A DNA stretch of 30,716 bases, taken from IMG/VR virus record IMGVR_UViG_3300014962_000039, positions 1 through 30,716 of that record, one strand, 5' to 3'. Source of the stretch: a virus. The notes below the pieces were generated by a model, which was not told where the DNA came from, did not search any database, and worked only from the letters and a program-made list of their open reading frames with translations. The stretch's first letter is position 1. Each line of letters begins with the position of its first letter. The translations under genes and the position numbers were made by a program. This document shows, one piece after another, positions 458-30,716 of the stretch.

Positions 458-1134
458 TGGTCGAGCTTGTGAAGATTGGCCGTGCAACGCTCTATAGGGC
501 CGATTGCCGCGAGGTGCTGCCGACGCTGGACCGTGTCGAACTGGTCTGCACTGACCCGCCTTATGGGATCAAGGCAGATTCCACGATGGCAAAGGCGAGT
601 GGCTTTCAGGGCGGCGGAATGATGGCCGCAAAGTCCCATTACGAGTCCACCGATTGGGATGTAAATCCGGTCGATCCCGGCCTTATGGCGCTGGTTCGCA
701 ATTCTGGCCGTTGGCAGATCATTTTCGGCGGCAACTACTACGATTGCCCGCCATCTTCGTGCTGGTTGGTTTGGGACAAGGAAATCAACGGGCACTTTGC
801 CGACTGCGAATTGGCATGGACGAACTTGCCTAAAGCTGTCCGCCGTATTCGGCATATGTGGAACGGAATGCTCCGCAAGGGGCAGGAAGAGCGCCACGGC
901 CACCCGACACAAAAGCCGCTTGAGGTGATGAAGTGGTGCATTGGCCACGCGCCCCACAGCGAGACGGTTCTCGATCCTTTCATGGGGTCGGGCACAACCG
1001 GCGTTGCAGCAGTGCAGATGGGCAAGGACTTCATCGGTATCGAGCGCGAGCCGAAATACTTTGAGATAGCCTGCCGCCGCATCGAAGAAGCCCAGCGCCA
1101 AGGCGACCTTTTCATAGACGGAGCGGCAGCATGA
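457..1134 (+). CDS. Orphan DNA methyltransferase, beta class (probably N6-adenine)
   Basis: This 225-residue protein shows catalytic motif IV as DPPYG (about residue 30) and the SAM-binding motif I as DPFMGSGTT near residue 172, followed by an FIGIERE..YFEIACRRIEEA tail. The order IV then I is the beta-class arrangement, as in CcrM and HinfI methylases. DPPY rather than SPPY favours adenine N6 methylation. I start it at ATG 457, which overlaps the preceding stop; an in-frame TTG at 436 would add seven residues. No restriction endonuclease lies next to it, so it is probably a solitary methylase that shields phage DNA from host restriction or tunes expression. The target sequence cannot be read from the protein. 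Confidence 0.85.
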   Translation: MVELVKIGRATLYRADCREVLPTLDRVELVCTDPPYGIKADSTMAKASGFQGGGMMAAKSHYESTDWDVNPVDPGLMALVRNSGRWQIIFGGNYYDCPPSSCWLVWDKEINGHFADCELAWTNLPKAVRRIRHMWNGMLRKGQEERHGHPTQKPLEVMKWCIGHAPHSETVLDPFMGSGTTGVAAVQMGKDFIGIEREPKYFEIACRRIEEAQRQGDLFIDGAAA

Positions 1135-1139
1135 ACCGC

Positions 1140-1168
1140 TTGCCCGTTCCCCCTTTGTTCGCTATATT
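1140..1168 (+). promoter_or_regulatory. Candidate sigma-70-type promoter for the replication genes
   Basis: TTGCCC (1140-1145) and TATATT (1163-1168) are separated by exactly 17 bases, in the gap just after the methyltransferase. Transcription would start near 1175 and read into the 70-residue gene and the replication genes. The -10 is an AT island in GC-rich sequence. The -35 matches four of six consensus bases. Confidence 0.45.
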
Positions 1169-1236
1169 AGCGGGCCGGAAAGGAGTTTGCCGCTCCCAAC
1201 CGGCCCTAACCACGAAACCTGACAAGGAGGTTCCGA

Positions 1237-1449
1237 ATGGCTCGTAAGGCCAATGCCACGCGCCGCGATGGCGCGCAACAGATTCCGACATTCCGCATCG
1301 ACGAAGCCCAGGTCGATAGGGCCTACGAAGCATTTTCCGTGCTTCGGCAAGCTGCCTGCGAGCGACCTGGACTGGTCGAGAACGAGTATTTCACCGCCCT
1401 ACAGGACACCGCCTTTGCGCGCTTCCTGGCAGTGTTCGAGGCGCTGTAA
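1237..1449 (+). CDS. Small phage protein, unknown function
   Basis: This 70-residue protein has a basic N-terminus (MARKANATRRDG) followed by an amphipathic helical region. A strong ribosome site, AAGGAGG at 1224-1230, sits seven bases before the ATG. Its TAA overlaps the next ATG (TAATG at 1447-1451), coupling it to the DUF1376 replication gene. No family recognised. Its position suggests a small replication or early regulatory accessory, which is inference. Confidence 0.75.
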   Translation: MARKANATRRDGAQQIPTFRIDEAQVDRAYEAFSVLRQAACERPGLVENEYFTALQDTAFARFLAVFEAL

Positions 1450-2066
1450 TGGCTGCGCTCCCTTACATGCCGCTCTACATTGCGGACTACCTTTCGGACG
1501 CGGCGCACCTGACGACGCTGGAGCACGGGGCCTACCTGCTGCTCATCATGGCCTACTGGCAGAGGGGTGAAGCCCTGCCGAACGACGACAAGAAACTGGC
1601 CCGAATTTGCCGCATGACACCCGGCCAATGGACGCGGATCAAACCGCAGATTTTGGAGTTTTTTGACGAAGCTGGAAAACAGCTTTGCCATTTAAGAATT
1701 GAGCACGAGCTAGCTAAGGTCCGCGCTAAGTCATTGAATAAGCGTAAAGGGGGCCTAGCACGTGCTAAGCAGATGCACAACAAATGCTCAGCACCTGCTA
1801 AGCTAATAGAAGATACAGATACAGATATTCAGTTAGATAAATCTAACTGCCCTGACGGGCCTTCCGACAAGGCGTTTTGGGACAACGCTTCAAGCTTCAT
1901 CGGTGGCAAGCGTTCGCTCATCGGCAAGTGGATCAAGGACCACGGGCGGGAAGCAACCGCCATAGCCATCACGACGGCGCAACTCGAACGCGCGGCGGAC
2001 CCCGTTTCCTACATCACGGCGACCCTTCGCAAGCGCGCCAAGCCGCAAGTGAAGGTCGGCATATGA
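1449..2066 (+). CDS. DUF1376 (YdaU-like) phage replication protein
   Basis: This 205-residue protein opens with the DUF1376 signature: YMPLYIADYLSDA, then LTTLEHGAYLLLIMAYW within the first 50 residues, and a winged-helix-like domain to about residue 90. A low-complexity linker with DTDTD follows (about residues 100-135). The C-terminal domain (about 140-200) ends in DPVSYITATLRKR. Proteins of this type are associated with phage replication initiation, where the N-domain is thought to bind origin DNA. It is coupled by overlap to the genes on both sides. The linker-coding DNA is AT-rich and repeat-filled in a GC-rich gene (see the origin candidate at 1702-1850), which matches the layout of lambda O. 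No Walker motif is present, so it is not itself a DnaC-type ATPase loader. Confidence 0.8.
   Translation: MAALPYMPLYIADYLSDAAHLTTLEHGAYLLLIMAYWQRGEALPNDDKKLARICRMTPGQWTRIKPQILEFFDEAGKQLCHLRIEHELAKVRAKSLNKRKGGLARAKQMHNKCSAPAKLIEDTDTDIQLDKSNCPDGPSDKAFWDNASSFIGGKRSLIGKWIKDHGREATAIAITTAQLERAADPVSYITATLRKRAKPQVKVGI
1702..1850. other. Candidate replication origin: iteron-like repeats, AT-rich tract and palindrome
   Basis: Inside the DUF1376 gene, GCTAAG occurs at 1713, 1725, 1764 and 1797. Two copies sit in a longer near-identical unit, AGCACSTGCTAAGC, at 1758-1771 and 1790-1803. Next come GATACA tandem copies at 1812-1827 and a perfect inverted repeat, CAGTTAGAT-AA-ATCTAACTG, at 1830-1849. The segment is strikingly AT-rich for this genome. 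All four repeats are read in frame as Ala-Lys with the codon pair GCT AAG. Iterons plus an AT-rich tract inside the initiator gene is the classical lambda O/ori arrangement. Initiator binding here is inference. Confidence 0.5.
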
Positions 2067-2455
2067 CCTGGACCCCAACCAAGGCGGGCAAGTTCACCTG
2101 CCCCGAGTGCAGCGCGGGCCGCAAGAACAAGGCCGACCGCTGCCTATCCGTCACCGCCAGGGACGGCGGCTTTGTCTATTTTTGCCATCACTGTGGCCTG
2201 AAGGGAGGAACCGGAAATGATCGAGGAACCGCATCGCAAGTGGCTGGAAGCCCGCGCCATCCCATCCGATTTGGCGGAGCGCCTTGGATTGACCACCGTG
2301 ACACGGGACAACGCCAAGTGGCTTTCGATCCCCTACCTGCACGACGGCGCAATCGTGAACCGGAAGTATCGGCGCACCAGCCAAAAGCAGCACAGCATGG
2401 ACAAGGGCGGCAAGCTGTGCCTGTGGAACGCAGAGTGCCTATCCGGGGTGGGTGA
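2063..2455 (+). CDS. Stand-alone primase zinc-binding domain protein
   Basis: This reading frame begins with ATG 2063, overlapping the upstream TGA (ATGA). Residues 13-44 hold a zinc ribbon: FTCPEC with C13 and C16, then YFCHHCG with C41 and C44. This is the fold found at the N-terminus of T7-like primase-helicases, where it reads the template primer site. The frame stays open to 2455, but past about residue 52 it only shadows the helicase gene, which is read in the +1 frame from 2217. Either this is a 130-residue protein with a non-conserved tail, or a +1 frameshift joins it to the helicase, or the split is a sequence error. The first 50 residues look genuine; the tail does not look like a domain. 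Confidence 0.6.
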   Translation: MTWTPTKAGKFTCPECSAGRKNKADRCLSVTARDGGFVYFCHHCGLKGGTGNDRGTASQVAGSPRHPIRFGGAPWIDHRDTGQRQVAFDPLPARRRNREPEVSAHQPKAAQHGQGRQAVPVERRVPIRGG

Positions 2456-3614
2456 GGTCATTATCACCGAGGGCGAATTTGACGCGCTTGCGGTGATGGC
2501 ATCCGGTTTCGAGCGGGTTGTGTCCGTTCCCAATGGCACCTCGGCCAGCGAGGCGAGCGACCCCTTCACCGGCAATGCCTACGCCTACATGTGGGAGCAC
2601 GAGGCGGCGCTGAAGGGCATCGAAAGCTTCGTTCTCGCCACGGACGGCGACAAGCCGGGACAGGCCTTGGCAAAGGGTCTGGCGGCGATCCTCGGGCCGG
2701 AGCGGTGCAAGTTCATTTCCTACCCGGAAGGCTGCAAGGACTTGAACGAAGTCCTGGTGAAGCATGGCGACCGCGAGGTTGTGAAGCTGATTGCCAGCGC
2801 CAAGCCCTACCCCATTGCGGGCCTCTACAAGCTGTCGCAGTTTCCCGAGGCGGCGGAAGTGCAGTCGATGGCCACCGGGATTGCCGCGCTGGACGCGCAT
2901 ATGTCGCTGGCGCTCGGCACCTTCACCGTGTTTTCCGGTTACAGCAACATGGGCAAATCTACCGTGTTGAACAGCATCATCGCCCATTGCATCGACCGGG
3001 ACGTTCCTGTTTGCGTGGCGTCATTCGAGACGGCCCCCAAGCCCATCCTGCGTGACGGCATTGCCCGCGCCCTGCTCGGGTGTAGCTTCCACGAATTGCC
3101 ACGCCATCCGCGCAAGCAGGAAGCCTATGACCAGATCGAGCGGCGGCTTTCGGTCATCTCCAACGCGCTGGACGATGAAAGCGACATCGATGTTGAAACA
3201 TACATCGAACTTGCCCGCGCCGCTGCGGTTCGGGATGGGGCGAAATTGATCATCCTCGACCCGTGGAACGAGTTGGAGCACAAGCGCGCGCCAAACGAAA
3301 CCGAAACGGATTACATCGGGCGGGCTATCCGTGCGCTCAAGCGGTTCGCCAGGCGCAGCAACGTGGCGCTGTGGGTTGTGGCGCACCCGACGAAGCCGCA
3401 GGGCCGCGATGGCGCGCCGGGGCTTTACGACATCGCAGGGTCCGCGAACTGGGCGAACAAGGCCGACTATGGCCTGATCTATCACCGCCCCGACAAGACC
3501 GTGAACGCTGGCACCCTGAACGTGGTCAAGGTCCGCATGGGCCTGCCCGGTGAGTGCGGAATCGTGAACGTGCGAATGGACGAAACGACAAGCCGCATCG
3601 TGGGCGCTGAGTGA
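2217..3614 (+). CDS. TOPRIM primase / RecA-fold helicase (T7 gp4 or Twinkle type)
   Basis: This 465-residue protein has a TOPRIM domain, with VIITEGEFDALA giving Glu85 and LATDGDKPG giving Asp143 and Asp145. A RecA-like hexameric helicase domain follows: Walker A GYSNMGKST at 241-249, Walker B LIILD at 344-348 and a VVAH motif ending at His390. It should unwind DNA 5'-3' at the fork and, if TOPRIM is active with a zinc domain, lay primers. An SD (GGGAGGAA, 2203-2210) precedes ATG 2217. A TGA at 2199-2201 in the same frame rules out a longer start, so this product lacks its own zinc-binding domain, like T7 gp4B. The zinc domain sits in the overlapping upstream frame. Confidence 0.88.
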   Translation: MIEEPHRKWLEARAIPSDLAERLGLTTVTRDNAKWLSIPYLHDGAIVNRKYRRTSQKQHSMDKGGKLCLWNAECLSGVGEVIITEGEFDALAVMASGFERVVSVPNGTSASEASDPFTGNAYAYMWEHEAALKGIESFVLATDGDKPGQALAKGLAAILGPERCKFISYPEGCKDLNEVLVKHGDREVVKLIASAKPYPIAGLYKLSQFPEAAEVQSMATGIAALDAHMSLALGTFTVFSGYSNMGKSTVLNSIIAHCIDRDVPVCVASFETAPKPILRDGIARALLGCSFHELPRHPRKQEAYDQIERRLSVISNALDDESDIDVETYIELARAAAVRDGAKLIILDPWNELEHKRAPNETETDYIGRAIRALKRFARRSNVALWVVAHPTKPQGRDGAPGLYDIAGSANWANKADYGLIYHRPDKTVNAGTLNVVKVRMGLPGECGIVNVRMDETTSRIVGAE

Positions 3615-4946: not shown

Positions 4947-5117
4947 ATGCAAGCAAACATGAAGACGGCCATTGCTCTGAGGCGCGCGATGCGCCGCGAA
5001 CTGCTCCGCAAGGCCCACGGCCTGTTCGCCATGGATGACATGGAAGAGCTGACCGCTCCCGAACTGGACTACCTCGACCGCTGGATGGCCGATGCCTTTG
5101 GCGACAGGGTGAACTGA
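4947..5117 (+). CDS. Small phage protein, unknown function
   Basis: This 56-residue helical protein is the first gene after the late promoter and leader. ATG 4947 has only a weak SD (GCGAGG), and ATG 4959 is a possible alternative. It contains an RRAMRRELLRKAHG basic helix followed by an acidic APELDYLDRWMADAFG segment. Its place directly before the small terminase suggests a packaging or late regulatory accessory. No family recognised. Confidence 0.6.
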   Translation: MQANMKTAIALRRAMRRELLRKAHGLFAMDDMEELTAPELDYLDRWMADAFGDRVN

Positions 5118-5171
5118 TCCCACAACCTGACTGAAACCGCCCACCGGCAACGGAGCGGAAAGCGAGGTCTT

Positions 5172-5492
5172 ATGGCTGAAGATACAGCCCCCAAGCAGCC
5201 GGGACTTCCGGCGCATCTTCGTGATGACCTGAAATGGAAGCCTGGGCAGTCTGGCAACCCGGCAGGACGCCCCAAGGGGGCCCGGTCAATCCTTCAAGAG
5301 CAGTTCTTCAAGGCGTTGCAAAAGGACTTTGAGGAAAACGGCGCGGTGGTTCTTAAGGCTATGCGCGCTGAAAAGCCGAACGAATACGCCCGCATGGTGG
5401 CAGGCCTGATGAGTAAGGAACTGACAGGCGAGGACGGCGCTCCGCTGTTTCCCACATCGGTTGACTGGAATGTCCGCAAGCCTGCCAATTGA
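5172..5492 (+). CDS. DUF5681-domain protein, candidate small terminase
   Basis: This 106-residue protein carries the DUF5681 signature LKWKPGQSGNPAGRPKGAR at about residues 20-38, an AT-hook-like basic loop, then a helical region. Proteins with this motif commonly sit directly upstream of large terminase genes and are taken as terminase small subunits that recognise phage DNA and regulate the motor. The next gene, the large terminase, overlaps its end by about 20 bases. Its own start is ATG 5172 with the SD GCGAGG about nine bases upstream. The domain call is firm; the terminase role rests on context. Confidence 0.72.
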   Translation: MAEDTAPKQPGLPAHLRDDLKWKPGQSGNPAGRPKGARSILQEQFFKALQKDFEENGAVVLKAMRAEKPNEYARMVAGLMSKELTGEDGAPLFPTSVDWNVRKPAN

Positions 5493-6759
5493 ATGCGCGG
5501 AGGCATTCTCCCCACTTCTGGAGCGGGGGCGATATAAGGGGGCTTGGGGTGGGCGCGGCTCTGGCAAGAGCCAGTTCTTTGCCGACCTGATGGTTGCGAT
5601 GGCGGTAAGGAAACCCGGCTTTCGCGGGCTATGTTGCCGCGAGGTCCAGAAGTCTCTCAAGGAATCGGCAAAGCGCCTGATTGATCAGAAGATTGCCGCG
5701 CATAACCTTGGCGGGTTGTTCGAGGTGCAGGAATCGCAAATCAAGACGCCCGGTGGCGGGTTGATCGTGTTTGCTGGTTTGCAGGACCATACGAGCGAAA
5801 GCATCAAGTCTTACGAGGGCTTTGATGTCGCATGGGTGGAAGAGGCCCAGACGGTAAGCGACCGCAGCTTGAACCTGCTGCGCCCGACCATTCGCGCGCC
5901 GGGGTCTGAACTGTGGTTTAGCTGGAACCCGCGCCGCAAAGGCGATGCGGTGGACAAGATGCTACGCGGTGATGAGCTGCCGACCGGAGCAATCGTGGTG
6001 AAGGCGAACTGGGACCAGAATCCATGGTTCCCCGATGAACTGGAGCAAGAGCGCCTGGACTGCGTGAGGCAGCAGCCCGACCAGTATGACCACATCTGGG
6101 AAGGCGGTTATGTAACCGTTGCTGATGGAGCCTATTACGCCAGGTCACTGACAGAGGCCAAGCAGCAAGGGCGGATAGGCAAGGTGGCCTTTGACCCGCT
6201 TATGACCGTTCGGCTGTTCTGGGACATCGGCGGAACTGGCGCGCGGGCTGATGCGTGTTCGATCTGGCCCGCTCAGTTCATTGGCAAGGAAGTGCGGGTA
6301 AGGGATTATTACGAGGCGGTTGGGCAACCTCTGGCCGCGCATGTCAACTGGCTGCGCTCCATGGGTTATGGCCCTGACCGAGCGCAGATTGTGCTACCTC
6401 ATGACGGGGCGACACACGACAAGGTTTATTCTGTCTCATACGAAAGCGCGCTGCGCGAGGCGGGCTATCACGTGACGGTCATCCCCAACCAGGGGCGCGG
6501 CGCGGCCAAGGCTCGCATTGAAGCGGCGCGCCGGTTGTTCCCGCAGATATGGTTCGACGAAGAGACGACAGCGGCGGGGCGCGATGCGCTTGGCTGGTAT
6601 CACGAAAAGAAGGACGAAGGCCGGGGCGTTGGCCTTGGTCCTGAGCACGACTGGGCGAGCCATGGGGCGGATAGCTTCGGGCTGATGGCCGTTGCGCATG
6701 AGGACCAGCAGCAGCCGGTCAAACTCGACCTATCCAATCTGATGAAAGGCAGGGTATAA
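5470..6759 (+). CDS. terL: Terminase large subunit (PBSX/terminase-3 type)
   Basis: This 429-residue motor protein packages DNA into the prohead and cuts the concatemer. The ATPase half has Walker A GGRGSGKS (27-34), Walker B VAWVEEA with acidic residues 124-125, and the coupling segment WFSWNPRRKGD (149-159). The RNase H-like nuclease half has Asp252 in LFWDIGG, Asp312 in LPHDGATHDK and a C-terminal SHGADSFG with Asp401, the expected acidic triad. Length is normal for the family. ATG 5470 is chosen over TTG 5461. TAATG couples it to the portal gene. It looks intact. Confidence 0.92.
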   Translation: MSASLPIECAEAFSPLLERGRYKGAWGGRGSGKSQFFADLMVAMAVRKPGFRGLCCREVQKSLKESAKRLIDQKIAAHNLGGLFEVQESQIKTPGGGLIVFAGLQDHTSESIKSYEGFDVAWVEEAQTVSDRSLNLLRPTIRAPGSELWFSWNPRRKGDAVDKMLRGDELPTGAIVVKANWDQNPWFPDELEQERLDCVRQQPDQYDHIWEGGYVTVADGAYYARSLTEAKQQGRIGKVAFDPLMTVRLFWDIGGTGARADACSIWPAQFIGKEVRVRDYYEAVGQPLAAHVNWLRSMGYGPDRAQIVLPHDGATHDKVYSVSYESALREAGYHVTVIPNQGRGAAKARIEAARRLFPQIWFDEETTAAGRDALGWYHEKKDEGRGVGLGPEHDWASHGADSFGLMAVAHEDQQQPVKLDLSNLMKGRV

Positions 6760-28419: not shown

Positions 28420-28662
28420 TCAGTCATCGTTCTGCTCCTGTAGGATTGCGCGGACGGCGAGGCCGGTCGGGCAGTCAGCAGTGCTCAAGGTGTCAGGAAA
28501 GCCCAGGAGGGGCATTCCATCAACAGCCCCGCAGAAGATGCACTTGAAGTCGTAAAGGCTGCTGTCGGAAAAGCGAGTAACATGGCCGCGCGAGGCCTCG
28601 CTCAAACACTCGTCCCGCTGCGCCTTCGTCAGCTTGGCCGCTATCGCGTGTGCGTCAGTCAT
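28420..28662 (-). CDS. Small phage accessory protein, unknown
   Basis: This 80-residue minus-strand protein is started at ATG 28662 because GGAGG lies at a good distance upstream. The longer open frame to 28776 has no such site. The N-terminal KLTKAQRDECLSEA and C-terminal TGLAVRAILQEQ segments resemble small winged-helix-like phage proteins; a middle FKCIFCGAVDG offers a C-x2-C pair. No function recognised. It is convergent to the spanins and divergent from the remnant after it. Confidence 0.62.
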   Translation of the reverse strand: MTDAHAIAAKLTKAQRDECLSEASRGHVTRFSDSSLYDFKCIFCGAVDGMPLLGFPDTLSTADCPTGLAVRAILQEQNDD

Positions 28663-28685
28663 TGGGTTGGTCCTCCAATCTATAG

Positions 28686-28997
28686 GCGGCAACCCTCGCG
28701 CCGCGCGGCCTCGGTCTGTTTGAAACCTATTGCTCGGCGAATTGGACGCTTGAGCAGGTGCTCGACACCTTCTCAAAACCCAACCCCGGCGTTCCGGTGA
28801 TCGTGTGCGGCTATTCGGTCGATGACCCTACAGACGGCCATGCAGTTATAGCGATGGACGGAAAGGTGGTTCACGATCCGAGTGGGGCCGGACTGAGCGG
28901 GCCATACGATTGCCGGGAACCGGGTTGCGAGTGCGGGCAGTCATGGTGGTGGATTTACACGATCAGCGCTTCCTCTCGCTGGAAGGGGTCGCTGTGA
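28686..28997 (+). pseudogene. 5'-truncated phage protein with GHAV/HDPSG motif
   Basis: The frame is open from 28686 (TAG at 28683-28685) to 28997. Protein-like sequence begins at once (LFETYCSANWTLEQVLDTF) with no ATG and no SD; GTG 28758 is the first usual start. The conserved-looking core is GVPVIVCGYS, then DGHAVIAMDGKVVHDPSGAGL and WWWIYT. Phage proteins of this type usually have an N-terminal part before this core, with a papain-like layout where the Cys would lie; that part is missing here. I read it as a 5' truncation, possibly linked to insertion of the minus-strand gene. A short expressed protein from 28758 is the alternative. Confidence 0.5.
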
Positions 28998-29113
28998 TGG
29001 CCGAGCAGGACTTCGAGGTCGCGCCGGTGGGAACGCTCGCCCGCCTTGGCGAACTGGAAGGCAAGGTCGCCGAACTGGCGTTTATATACCTTGCAAACAC
29101 GATAGCGATGTGA
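28997..29113 (+). CDS. Small phage protein, unknown
   Basis: This 38-residue frame begins at ATG 28997, overlapping the preceding stop (TGATG). The product AEQDFEVAPVGTLARLGEL, then EGKVAELAFIYLANTIAM, is an amphipathic helix with a hydrophobic end. It stops 29 bases before the transposase ATG. It may be a complete small protein or a remnant cut by the insertion. Support is the overlap and coherent composition only. Confidence 0.45.
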   Translation: MAEQDFEVAPVGTLARLGELEGKVAELAFIYLANTIAM

Positions 29114-29118
29114 CATAA

Positions 29119-29136
29119 GATTCCTCGAAGGGAATC
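29119..29136 (+). promoter_or_regulatory. Hairpin over the transposase ribosome site
   Basis: GATTCC (29119-29124) pairs with GGAATC (29131-29136). The pairing covers part of the SD-like GAAGGGA at 29127-29133, seven to ten bases before ATG 29143. Transcripts entering from the lysis operon would fold this way and reduce transposase translation. Many insertion sequences guard against read-through in this manner; the effect here is inferred. Confidence 0.45.
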
Positions 29137-29142
29137 AAAGTC

Positions 29143-30096
29143 ATGTCTGTTCTGTCCAAGCCTTACTTTCACAATGAGGAAGCGGCCTTTGCTTACCTCG
29201 AAAGCATCGTGTGGGCGGATGGATCGGTTTGCCCCCATTGCGGCGGTATGGATCGCATCACGAAGGTGAAGGCCAATCCGGCCAAGCGCATTCGTGAAGG
29301 CCTGTGGCGCTGCGGCGACTGCAAGCGCCAGTTCACCGTCAAAGTGGGCACGGTGTTCGAGCATATGCGCCTGCCGCTGCACAAGGCGCTACAGGCGGTT
29401 TACCTCATCACCAGCAGCAAGAAGGGTATCAGCGCGCATCAGCTCCACCGTGTCCTTGAGATCACCTACAAGAGCGCGTGGTTTCTGGCGCACCGTATCC
29501 GCGAAGCCATGCGTGATGGAGGCATCGGCGTTCCCTTTGGTGGCGGCGGCACGGCGGTTGAGGTTGATGAGACCTATTTCGGCAAGCGCCCTGGCGTGAA
29601 GATGGGCAAGGGCGGTCATGTGCACAAATATGGCGTTCTGGCGCTGGTTGACCGGGCCACCGGCCAGATGCGCTCGTTCACCTTCGACAAGTTCAGCAAG
29701 GCCGAAGTCCACCCGATCATCCGGGCAAACATCTCTCGCGAGGCGCGCCTGATGACCGACGAGCACAAGATGTACTGGACCATTGGCCGCGAGTTTGCCG
29801 AGCACGGCACGACGCATCACGGCACCAAGATTTATGTCGATCCGACCGACCGCACCATCCACTCGAACACGGTGGAAGGCGCTTTCTCGATCTTCAAGCG
29901 CGGCATGAAGGGCGTGTATCAGCACTGCGGCGAGCAACATCTGCACCGCTATCTGGCCGAATTTGAGTTCCGCTATAACAACCGTGCCGCGCTCGGATGC
30001 AATGATGCTGATCGCTCTGTCGCGGCGTTGTCTGGCATCGTTGGCAAGCGCCTGACCTACAAGTCAGCTAACCGGATTGAAGTCCGCGCAGTCTGA
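29143..30096 (+). CDS. IS1595-family (ISXO2-like) transposase, complete
   Basis: This 317-residue protein has an N-terminal zinc ribbon with C30, C33, C57 and C60 (CPHCGG, CGDC). A helical region follows, then a DDE-type core: Asp142 in VEVDETYFG, Asp206 in MTDEH, and the family-specific HSNTVEGAFSIFKRG (240-254), then HLHRYLAEFEFRYNNR. The length and motifs are complete, so it should be active. I find no matching terminal inverted repeats in the flanking sequence. It belongs to a cut-and-paste or copy-in element, possibly with passenger genes downstream. Confidence 0.9.
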   Translation: MSVLSKPYFHNEEAAFAYLESIVWADGSVCPHCGGMDRITKVKANPAKRIREGLWRCGDCKRQFTVKVGTVFEHMRLPLHKALQAVYLITSSKKGISAHQLHRVLEITYKSAWFLAHRIREAMRDGGIGVPFGGGGTAVEVDETYFGKRPGVKMGKGGHVHKYGVLALVDRATGQMRSFTFDKFSKAEVHPIIRANISREARLMTDEHKMYWTIGREFAEHGTTHHGTKIYVDPTDRTIHSNTVEGAFSIFKRGMKGVYQHCGEQHLHRYLAEFEFRYNNRAALGCNDADRSVAALSGIVGKRLTYKSANRIEVRAV

Positions 30097-30120
30097 ACGG
30101 AGCAAGAGGAACCACAGCCG

Positions 30121-30183
30121 ATGGATAACCAAGCCGCACCGAAGATGGTAGCTTTACCCGGCGAATCCGCCGGAGTAGATTAA
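30121..30183 (+). CDS. Short leader-like frame after the transposase
   Basis: A 20-codon frame (MDNQAAPKMVALPGESAGVD) has GGAGCAAGAGGAA upstream and ends five bases before the next ATG. A perfect hairpin, CCGGCG (30158-30163) with CGCCGG (30168-30173), lies inside its 3' half. It may act as a coupling or attenuating leader for the downstream gene rather than encode a functional peptide. Confidence 0.35.
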   Translation: MDNQAAPKMVALPGESAGVD

Positions 30184-30187
30184 GCCG

Positions 30188-30716
30188 ATGTCTGGTTTTG
30201 AGCGCTTCGAATTTACTGTGCCGGGCTATACCCCGGAGACGATGCCGCTCGATCGGTTGATTGAATATCTCAATCAATTGATGGTGATTCTTGGAAATCC
30301 CTCTGACTTGCACCTAGTCAAAATTGAGACGGGCAGCACAAAGCCTGTCTTGCTTGCCCGTCACGATGTTGCCCGAAAGGTTCGGGGCCGCGCGCGTGAA
30401 GTTTGGTCTGGGGGTGGTCCTGCGCGCGCCCAGGATGCTTTCAGGCGTGTCAGACGAATGGTCGCTGAGGATGGCGGAAAGCCTGCCGTGCTTGCCAGTA
30501 AGAAGGTTACAATCCTAGAGTTCCAAGGTGACGAGATTGCGGAAAACCAGATTGTTCCTTCCGTTAGACAGGCGACCACGATAAACGGAAAGCTGGTGCG
30601 TATTGGTGGCACCAGTGAATATGCGCAGGCCCTTGTCGAAGATTTCTCTGGCGGTGTGATTGCAGGTTGCACGGTTGACCGCGATCATGCTGCGCAACTC
30701 GGAGCGATGCTTTACC
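30188..30716 (+). CDS. Partial passenger-like protein, unknown
   Basis: The frame from ATG 30188 runs off the right edge (176 codons visible). It begins MSGFERFEFTVPGYTPETMP, then LDRLIEYLNQLMVILG, HLVKIETGSTKPVLLA and an AREVWSGGGPARAQDAFRRVRRMV segment, then a beta-rich part (KKVTILEFQGDEIA). I recognise the general pattern as a conserved bacterial protein of unknown role, but have no name for it. It follows the transposase in the same direction. It lacks an obvious SD, so it may depend on coupling. Confidence 0.65.
   Translation, partial: MSGFERFEFTVPGYTPETMPLDRLIEYLNQLMVILGNPSDLHLVKIETGSTKPVLLARHDVARKVRGRAREVWSGGGPARAQDAFRRVRRMVAEDGGKPAVLASKKVTILEFQGDEIAENQIVPSVRQATTINGKLVRIGGTSEYAQALVEDFSGGVIAGCTVDRDHAAQLGAMLY

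Follow-up and report, generated by a model that had tools for sequence, protein, structure and literature searches.

A podovirus-like phage contig that very probably ends inside a cargo-bearing element of the IS1595 family

The window analyzed here is the whole of IMG/VR record IMGVR_UViG_3300014962_000039, a linear sequence of 30,716 bases. It represents a 30.7-kb fragment of a podovirus-like phage genome, with portal, capsid and terminase genes among those recognized by PHROGs, a scan that also found an endolysin gene. The capsid protein is at most 86% identical to those on other IMG/VR contigs, and a search of the phage collection with the portal protein gave no match of 60% identity or higher. 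Close to the right end of the window, an intact ORF at 29143-30096 on the plus strand encodes a transposase of 317 aa. As stated in the first-pass annotation, this is a complete IS1595-type transposase in line with the late genes. It contains the DDE domain (DDE_Tnp_IS1595, E=1.1e-31) and, upstream of it, the zinc ribbon (Zn_ribbon_IS1595, E=9.5e-14) that characterize the family. A genome scan revealed 240 bacterial stretches encoding relatives of this protein, the best 80 of which were kept and, together with three viral contigs, make up the 83 related loci used throughout. When aligned with these 83 relatives, the window transposase keeps the acidic residues D142, D206 and E245, and the conserved residue at 100 of the 101 positions that are at least 95% conserved. 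Its nearest relatives among the best 80 of 240 are from sphingomonads, which the tree also shows, while the protein itself sits on a long end branch with no well-supported closest set. The host of the phage is probably alphaproteobacterial, and probably a sphingomonad.

The transposase gene is embedded in several smaller features of the same strand. A possible promoter (TTGCAA, 17 bases, CATAAG) at 29091-29119, which overlaps the left end of the element described below, was recognized by reading the sequence and by its conservation in relatives. Behind the transposase, an ORF of 20 codons at 30121-30183 possibly encodes a leader or coupling peptide. It is followed by ORF2 at 30188-30716, which is cut by the end of the contig and, judging by its homologues and a match to phrog_19868 (E=1.2e-18), corresponds to the first 176 aa of a passenger protein of about 245 aa. 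GC3 is 0.53 in ORF2, versus 0.75 in the transposase gene and 0.67-0.78 in the six genes measured on the left flank.

As for the ends of the element, alignment of the 83 loci reveals a conserved end upstream of most of the related transposases, located some 65 bases 5' of the start codon and typically reading GGCGATTATATACCTTGCAAACACG or GGCGATTATGTACTTTACAAACCC. The window has such an end at the expected distance from its own start codon, namely the left terminal inverted-repeat region GGCGTTTATATACCTTGCAAACACG at 29077-29101 (+), which agrees at 24 of 25 bases with the consensus of nine related elements. The first-pass annotation, in which no terminal repeats were visible, is therefore right for the right end and wrong for the left. 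It had also placed the start of the feature at 29085 rather than 29077, and did not mention the truncated ORF at 30188. A search of the contig tail for an end sequence found none from the transposase to 30716. The right end is not there because the contig breaks off within the second gene (30188 to 30716) and, since related elements measure 1.9-3.8 kb, it is expected about 0.3-2.2 kb past the contig end. The region at 29077-30716 (+) would thus be the left 1640 bp of the element. The eight bases before it, GCCGAACT at 29069-29076, are by position alone the expected left copy of an 8-bp target repeat. No second copy of GCCGAACT occurs between the transposase and 30716, in agreement with the earlier remark that no target duplication is visible.

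On the left flank, an ORF end (MAEQDFEVAPVGTLARLGELEGKVAEL) at 28997-29076 (+) runs into the element and possibly belongs to a phage gene that the element interrupted; since this ORF has no homologue, the interruption is something that we infer. The stretch at 28997-29074 had no match in the phage collection. The preceding frame at 28713-28997 had only weak matches there, to Caulobacter phage Sansa and Xylophilus phage Lumi, and neither 33 related phage records nor the IMG/VR scan yielded a homologue of it. This frame of 94 aa seems to be cut on its 5' side and adjoins a minus-strand ORF at 28420-28776, an arrangement (28420-28997) that is perhaps an older rearrangement. An empty site was not found in the 33 related records, IMG/VR, the phage collection or local searches over the loci.

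The relatives show what a whole element of this group looks like. Sixty-five of the 83 loci hold complete elements, with inverted repeats and an 8-bp target repeat that is exact in 59 of them. These are the 66 loci with matching ends and a flanking repeat, less L055, which was excluded because of a run of N and a spurious end that left 670 bp after the transposase. Inverted repeats together with a target repeat were not obtained for 17 of the 83, some of which are contig ends. The exact-repeat test was passed by 55 of 66 usable loci, versus 8 of 1320 control pairings in which the downstream DNA came from another locus. Complete elements are 1914-3842 bp long (median 2756, n=65), and every one of the 65 exceeds what a bare IS needs, because 921-2807 bp lie behind its transposase. 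A search of plasmid DNA yielded 40 records with IS1595 transposases that are 65-81% identical over parts.

The sites at which these elements sit are rich in A+T. Outside one sister lineage, to which we return below, the target repeat has at least six A or T in eight positions in 39 of 43 complete elements, versus 296 of 8600 background 8-mers. The data support an A+T-rich target for the relatives, and the window site, where three of the eight bases before the element are A or T, does not fit it. Many flanks resemble a hairpin followed by a T-run, which the window site does not. Targeting of terminators as such is unsupported, because the folding energy beside A+T-rich sites is no different from the background (median -9.2 vs -8.5 kcal/mol).

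Homologues of ORF2, about 245 aa long, are found right after the transposase, and at the same distance as in the window, in two complete elements, L080 and L090, and behind a transposase fragment in two further genomes. These latter two are among the 9 genomes with ORF2 relatives in the 396 genomes of the order to which the Novosphingobium genome of locus L017 (G034) belongs. An ORF2 homologue is followed by a second gene, ORF3, in 14 of 15 loci (L080, L090 and 12 of the 13 loci L195-L207), with a 4-base overlap between the two genes in 13 of the 14; L207, the exceptional locus, shows just a partial match. Four residues of ORF3 that correspond to the acidic residues of PIN nucleases (D6, E60, D121 and D140) are invariant in 13 of 13 aligned sequences, and Pfam recognized a PIN domain in one of the four ORF3 homologues scanned (E=1.7e-6). 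A single-sequence model of the L090 ORF3 protein, with a mean pLDDT of 41, was set aside. ORF2 itself matched nothing in Pfam or PADLOC, and its homologues matched no Pfam family at E<=0.01 and contain no recognized antitoxin domain. When the profile of the ORF2 family was compared with that of L030-type first genes, a probability of 83% (E=9e-6, 8% identity) was obtained, which is a hint only.

From their sequences, ORF2 and its PIN partner are predicted to form a toxin-antitoxin-like or defence nuclease module. As seen in the homologues, the pair is like VapBC in the PIN type of ORF3, with its four conserved acidic residues, and in the coupled order of the two genes. It differs in its first gene, which encodes about 245 aa with no recognized antitoxin domain, and its function is a prediction. 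Usual VapB proteins are much smaller. The ORF2 homologues, with this length and no Pfam family, do not qualify as small DNA-binding antitoxins of this type. Their size is one argument for a different reading, in which the pair is no toxin-antitoxin system but a two-gene nuclease system acting against mobile elements or superinfection, ORF2 guiding the nuclease through an OB-like domain. We regard this as a serious possibility, if somewhat short of an even chance. It would suit a model of the L090 ORF2 homologue for which Foldseek found 55 PDB matches at E<=0.001, with a resemblance to OB-fold single-stranded DNA binders and LysRS. However, this model is of low confidence (mean pLDDT 62, pTM 0.46), the TM-scores on the query are 0.19-0.32, a PDB sequence search with the ORF2 and ORF3 profiles found nothing significant and PADLOC found no match. 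The gene neighborhood in Pseudomonas phage Pacha_bin_1 (L197, PQ533669.1), where the pair at 4983-6227 lies directly behind an annotated cI repressor gene, also speaks for this reading, genes against superinfection often being found next to a phage repressor. The annotation of PQ533669.1 splits or reverses ORF2. Pseudomonas phage Ostro has an ORF2-ORF3 pair as well.

Whatever the pair does, the region at 29077-30716 is very probably the left part of a cargo-bearing IS1595 unit, or "transporter IS," inserted in the genome of a podovirus-like phage. In such a unit, the transposase would act at the inverted repeats, where it cuts or copies the element, and each insertion would come with an 8-bp target repeat. 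The sequence that follows the transposase gene would be the first gene of the coupled module of ORF2 and PIN nuclease, 176 codons of which lie within the contig. For the window copy we infer the right end, the PIN gene and the target repeat. Such an element has thus probably inserted itself into the phage, which may carry the cargo, in which case it would act as a vehicle of the ORF2-PIN module. The idea of an ordinary insertion whose right end lies farther off, raised in the first-pass annotation, is borne out by a left end at the expected distance and by relatives of 1.9-3.8 kb, but the insertion is not quite ordinary, because this group of elements carries passenger genes.

It is quite improbable that we are dealing with a plain IS1595 insertion lacking functional cargo, next to which ORF2 would be a chance neighbor or a phage gene. 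The right end being outside the contig, ORF2 might lie beyond the element, and its homologues occur also without IS1595, including in the two Pseudomonas phages. However, there is no right end between the transposase and ORF2, none of the 65 complete relatives ends less than 900 bp behind its transposase and all 65 carry a passenger, and the ORF2 homologues of L080 and L090 lie at an equal distance behind theirs.

A cargo-bearing insertion in a phage has a precedent in a related phage contig (L155/L216), whose capsid protein is 73% identical to that of the window. L216 holds a complete IS1595 element of 2199 bp (1024-3222 in reverse-complement coordinates) with phage-contig sequence on both sides, inverted repeats matching at 15 of 16 positions and an exact 8-bp GGGGCCAC at both ends. 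Only one of the eight bases of this target repeat is A or T, an exception to the A+T-rich rule. The transposase, of 303 aa, is 39% identical to that of the window, and the cargo is an ORF of 203 aa with no family match. This is an independent insertion, because it precedes the terminase gene and lies on the opposite strand. These features of L216 weigh against the view that the window is a chimera in which phage sequence was misjoined to a host copy of the element. Such a misjoin would explain why the element runs off the end of the contig, and why the eight bases before it are unlike the usual A+T-rich target, but the junction falls exactly on the tip of the element, as in a real insertion. 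We consider a chimera very improbable.

IS1595-like transposases were detected in 2 of 98 loci of related phages, L216 and a second contig, L139, with a transposase fragment only. Neither is at the place seen in the window, and the transposase is accordingly not conserved at this place in sister phages, many of the 98 loci being fragments that fall short of the corresponding end. The phage collection has transposase matches in 3 of 50,697 records, at 34% identity or less. Since the close relatives are bacterial elements, found in 240 bacterial stretches, and the window has an element-type left end and a cargo gene, the earlier speculation about a transposase used, or domesticated, by the phage to make itself mobile is extremely improbable, despite the intact gene collinear with the late genes and the lack of an integrase. 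This lack agrees with the 19 window ORFs scanned against PHROGs (transposase and ORF2 included), but carries little weight, because the contig is a linear fragment of 30.7 kb and IMG/VR contigs with a related capsid gene reach lengths of 35-48 kb. Three other IMG/VR contigs (L004:4356-6549, L010:2028-3474 and L011:4399-5845) have an IS1595 transposase, of which only the end is present in L010 and L011, followed by a first gene and a PIN gene that are 71-81% identical to those of elements L086 and L087.

As for the cargo of the cargo-bearing elements in general, the scan covered the 97 ORFs of 130 aa or longer among 142 of 80 aa or longer; DNA so rich in G+C contains many ORFs that are not genes. 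Pfam recognized 16 families in these 97 ORFs at E<=1e-3, most ORFs having none. The commonest are DUF3800 (19 ORFs), PIN (5), SocA/Panacea (4) and DUF433 (2), and there were single matches to RelA/SpoT, PemK, GmrSD, Schlafen/AlbA, DUF5615, PIN_10 and others. As a control, the 123 nearest ORFs outside the same elements were scanned and gave 121 Pfam families, mostly housekeeping with some of phage type; going by the 25 commonest of these, DUF3800, PIN and SocA each occur in at most one of the 123. PADLOC found BstA in two cargo ORFs (best E 9e-116), PDC-S46 (5e-255) and PDC-S33 (3e-125) in one each, and one match each of short-pAgo type and to a methyltransferase. PADLOC alone shows no enrichment in defence functions, with 26 families at E<=1e-3 in the cargo (97 ORFs) and the control (123 ORFs) alike. 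Because these numbers are equal, the claim of toxin-antitoxin or defence cargo rests on the recurrent families and the very strong matches.

The cargo differs even between elements that are nearly the same otherwise. Of the 43 pairs whose transposases are at least 90% identical, 40 have no similar cargo ORF in common; the pairs form a few clusters and are not independent. Among pairs of complete elements, the cargo differs at transposase identities of up to 99.4%. The pattern is what swapping of the cargo as a cassette would give.

Tentatively, with the balance tilted slightly against it, we propose that this IS1595 clade transports exchangeable cassettes of toxin-antitoxin or anti-phage type. 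The transposase and the ends would change very little as one cargo takes the place of another, and the elements would enter A+T-rich sites in bacteria, the fronts of GTA-like clusters, and phages. Phages would then spread cassettes that may work against other phages or give the carrier protection.

The window is like the transporter ISs of the IS1595 family in its IS1595 DDE transposase with a zinc ribbon, and its relatives in having passengers next to the transposase inside the element. PMC11891212, which cites Siguier et al. 2009, describes such passenger-carrying elements, for example ISNha5, and names as passengers transcription regulators (in ISNha5), methyltransferases and resistance genes. 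In contrast, the passengers found here are DUF3800 genes, PIN pairs, SocA, BstA and others, they are exchanged between near-identical transposases, and one copy is in a phage. Transposons of the Tn3 family carry toxin-antitoxin gene pairs, PIN among them, according to PMC7157771, and the present elements share with them passenger pairs of this type, PIN included. They differ in their IS1595 transposase, which is the sole obvious transposition gene, in their length of 1.9-3.8 kb and in that the toxin-antitoxin function of ORF2-PIN is predicted. In the open-access papers searched, we found no IS1595 element with DUF3800 or toxin-antitoxin/defence cargo, and the passages of PMC6209633, PMC11578231 and PMC10214660 that were consulted describe no such cargo. 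If true, a group in which all complete members carry passengers, often of toxin-antitoxin or defence type and swapped, would be a compact route for moving such modules, also via phages. Cargo exchange in a small transposon becomes directly testable, and many stretches annotated simply as "IS1595 family transposase" plus "hypothetical protein" acquire a new reading.

The sister lineage consists of cargo-bearing IS1595 elements in Sphingomonadales (L019, L021, L025-L029, L032, L033, L035, L036, L038, L044, L046, L050, L051, L053 and L056) that share one conserved location, immediately after a promoter-like TTGACATCGTNACGCTGATATGGCACA. This sequence is conserved just before the element in 21 of the 25 rows of one clade (support 100/100), in the left flank roughly 50 bases from the element, which is at 5933-5936 in most loci. 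Terminase- and portal-like genes lie downstream. Of 13 genomes, 8 have a match to TIGR02217, which we take to be a GTA tail gene, some 11-15 kb downstream without a change of strand or contig; 2 have it on another contig and 3 lack it. The GTA model PF13547 matched in none of the 13, which counts against a GTA reading, and the cluster is for this reason called "GTA-like." Its front seems to be a fixed target of the sister lineage. Five of these loci (L026, L027, L028, L029 and L032) have transposases that are 97-99% identical and unrelated cargo, at a similar kind of site.
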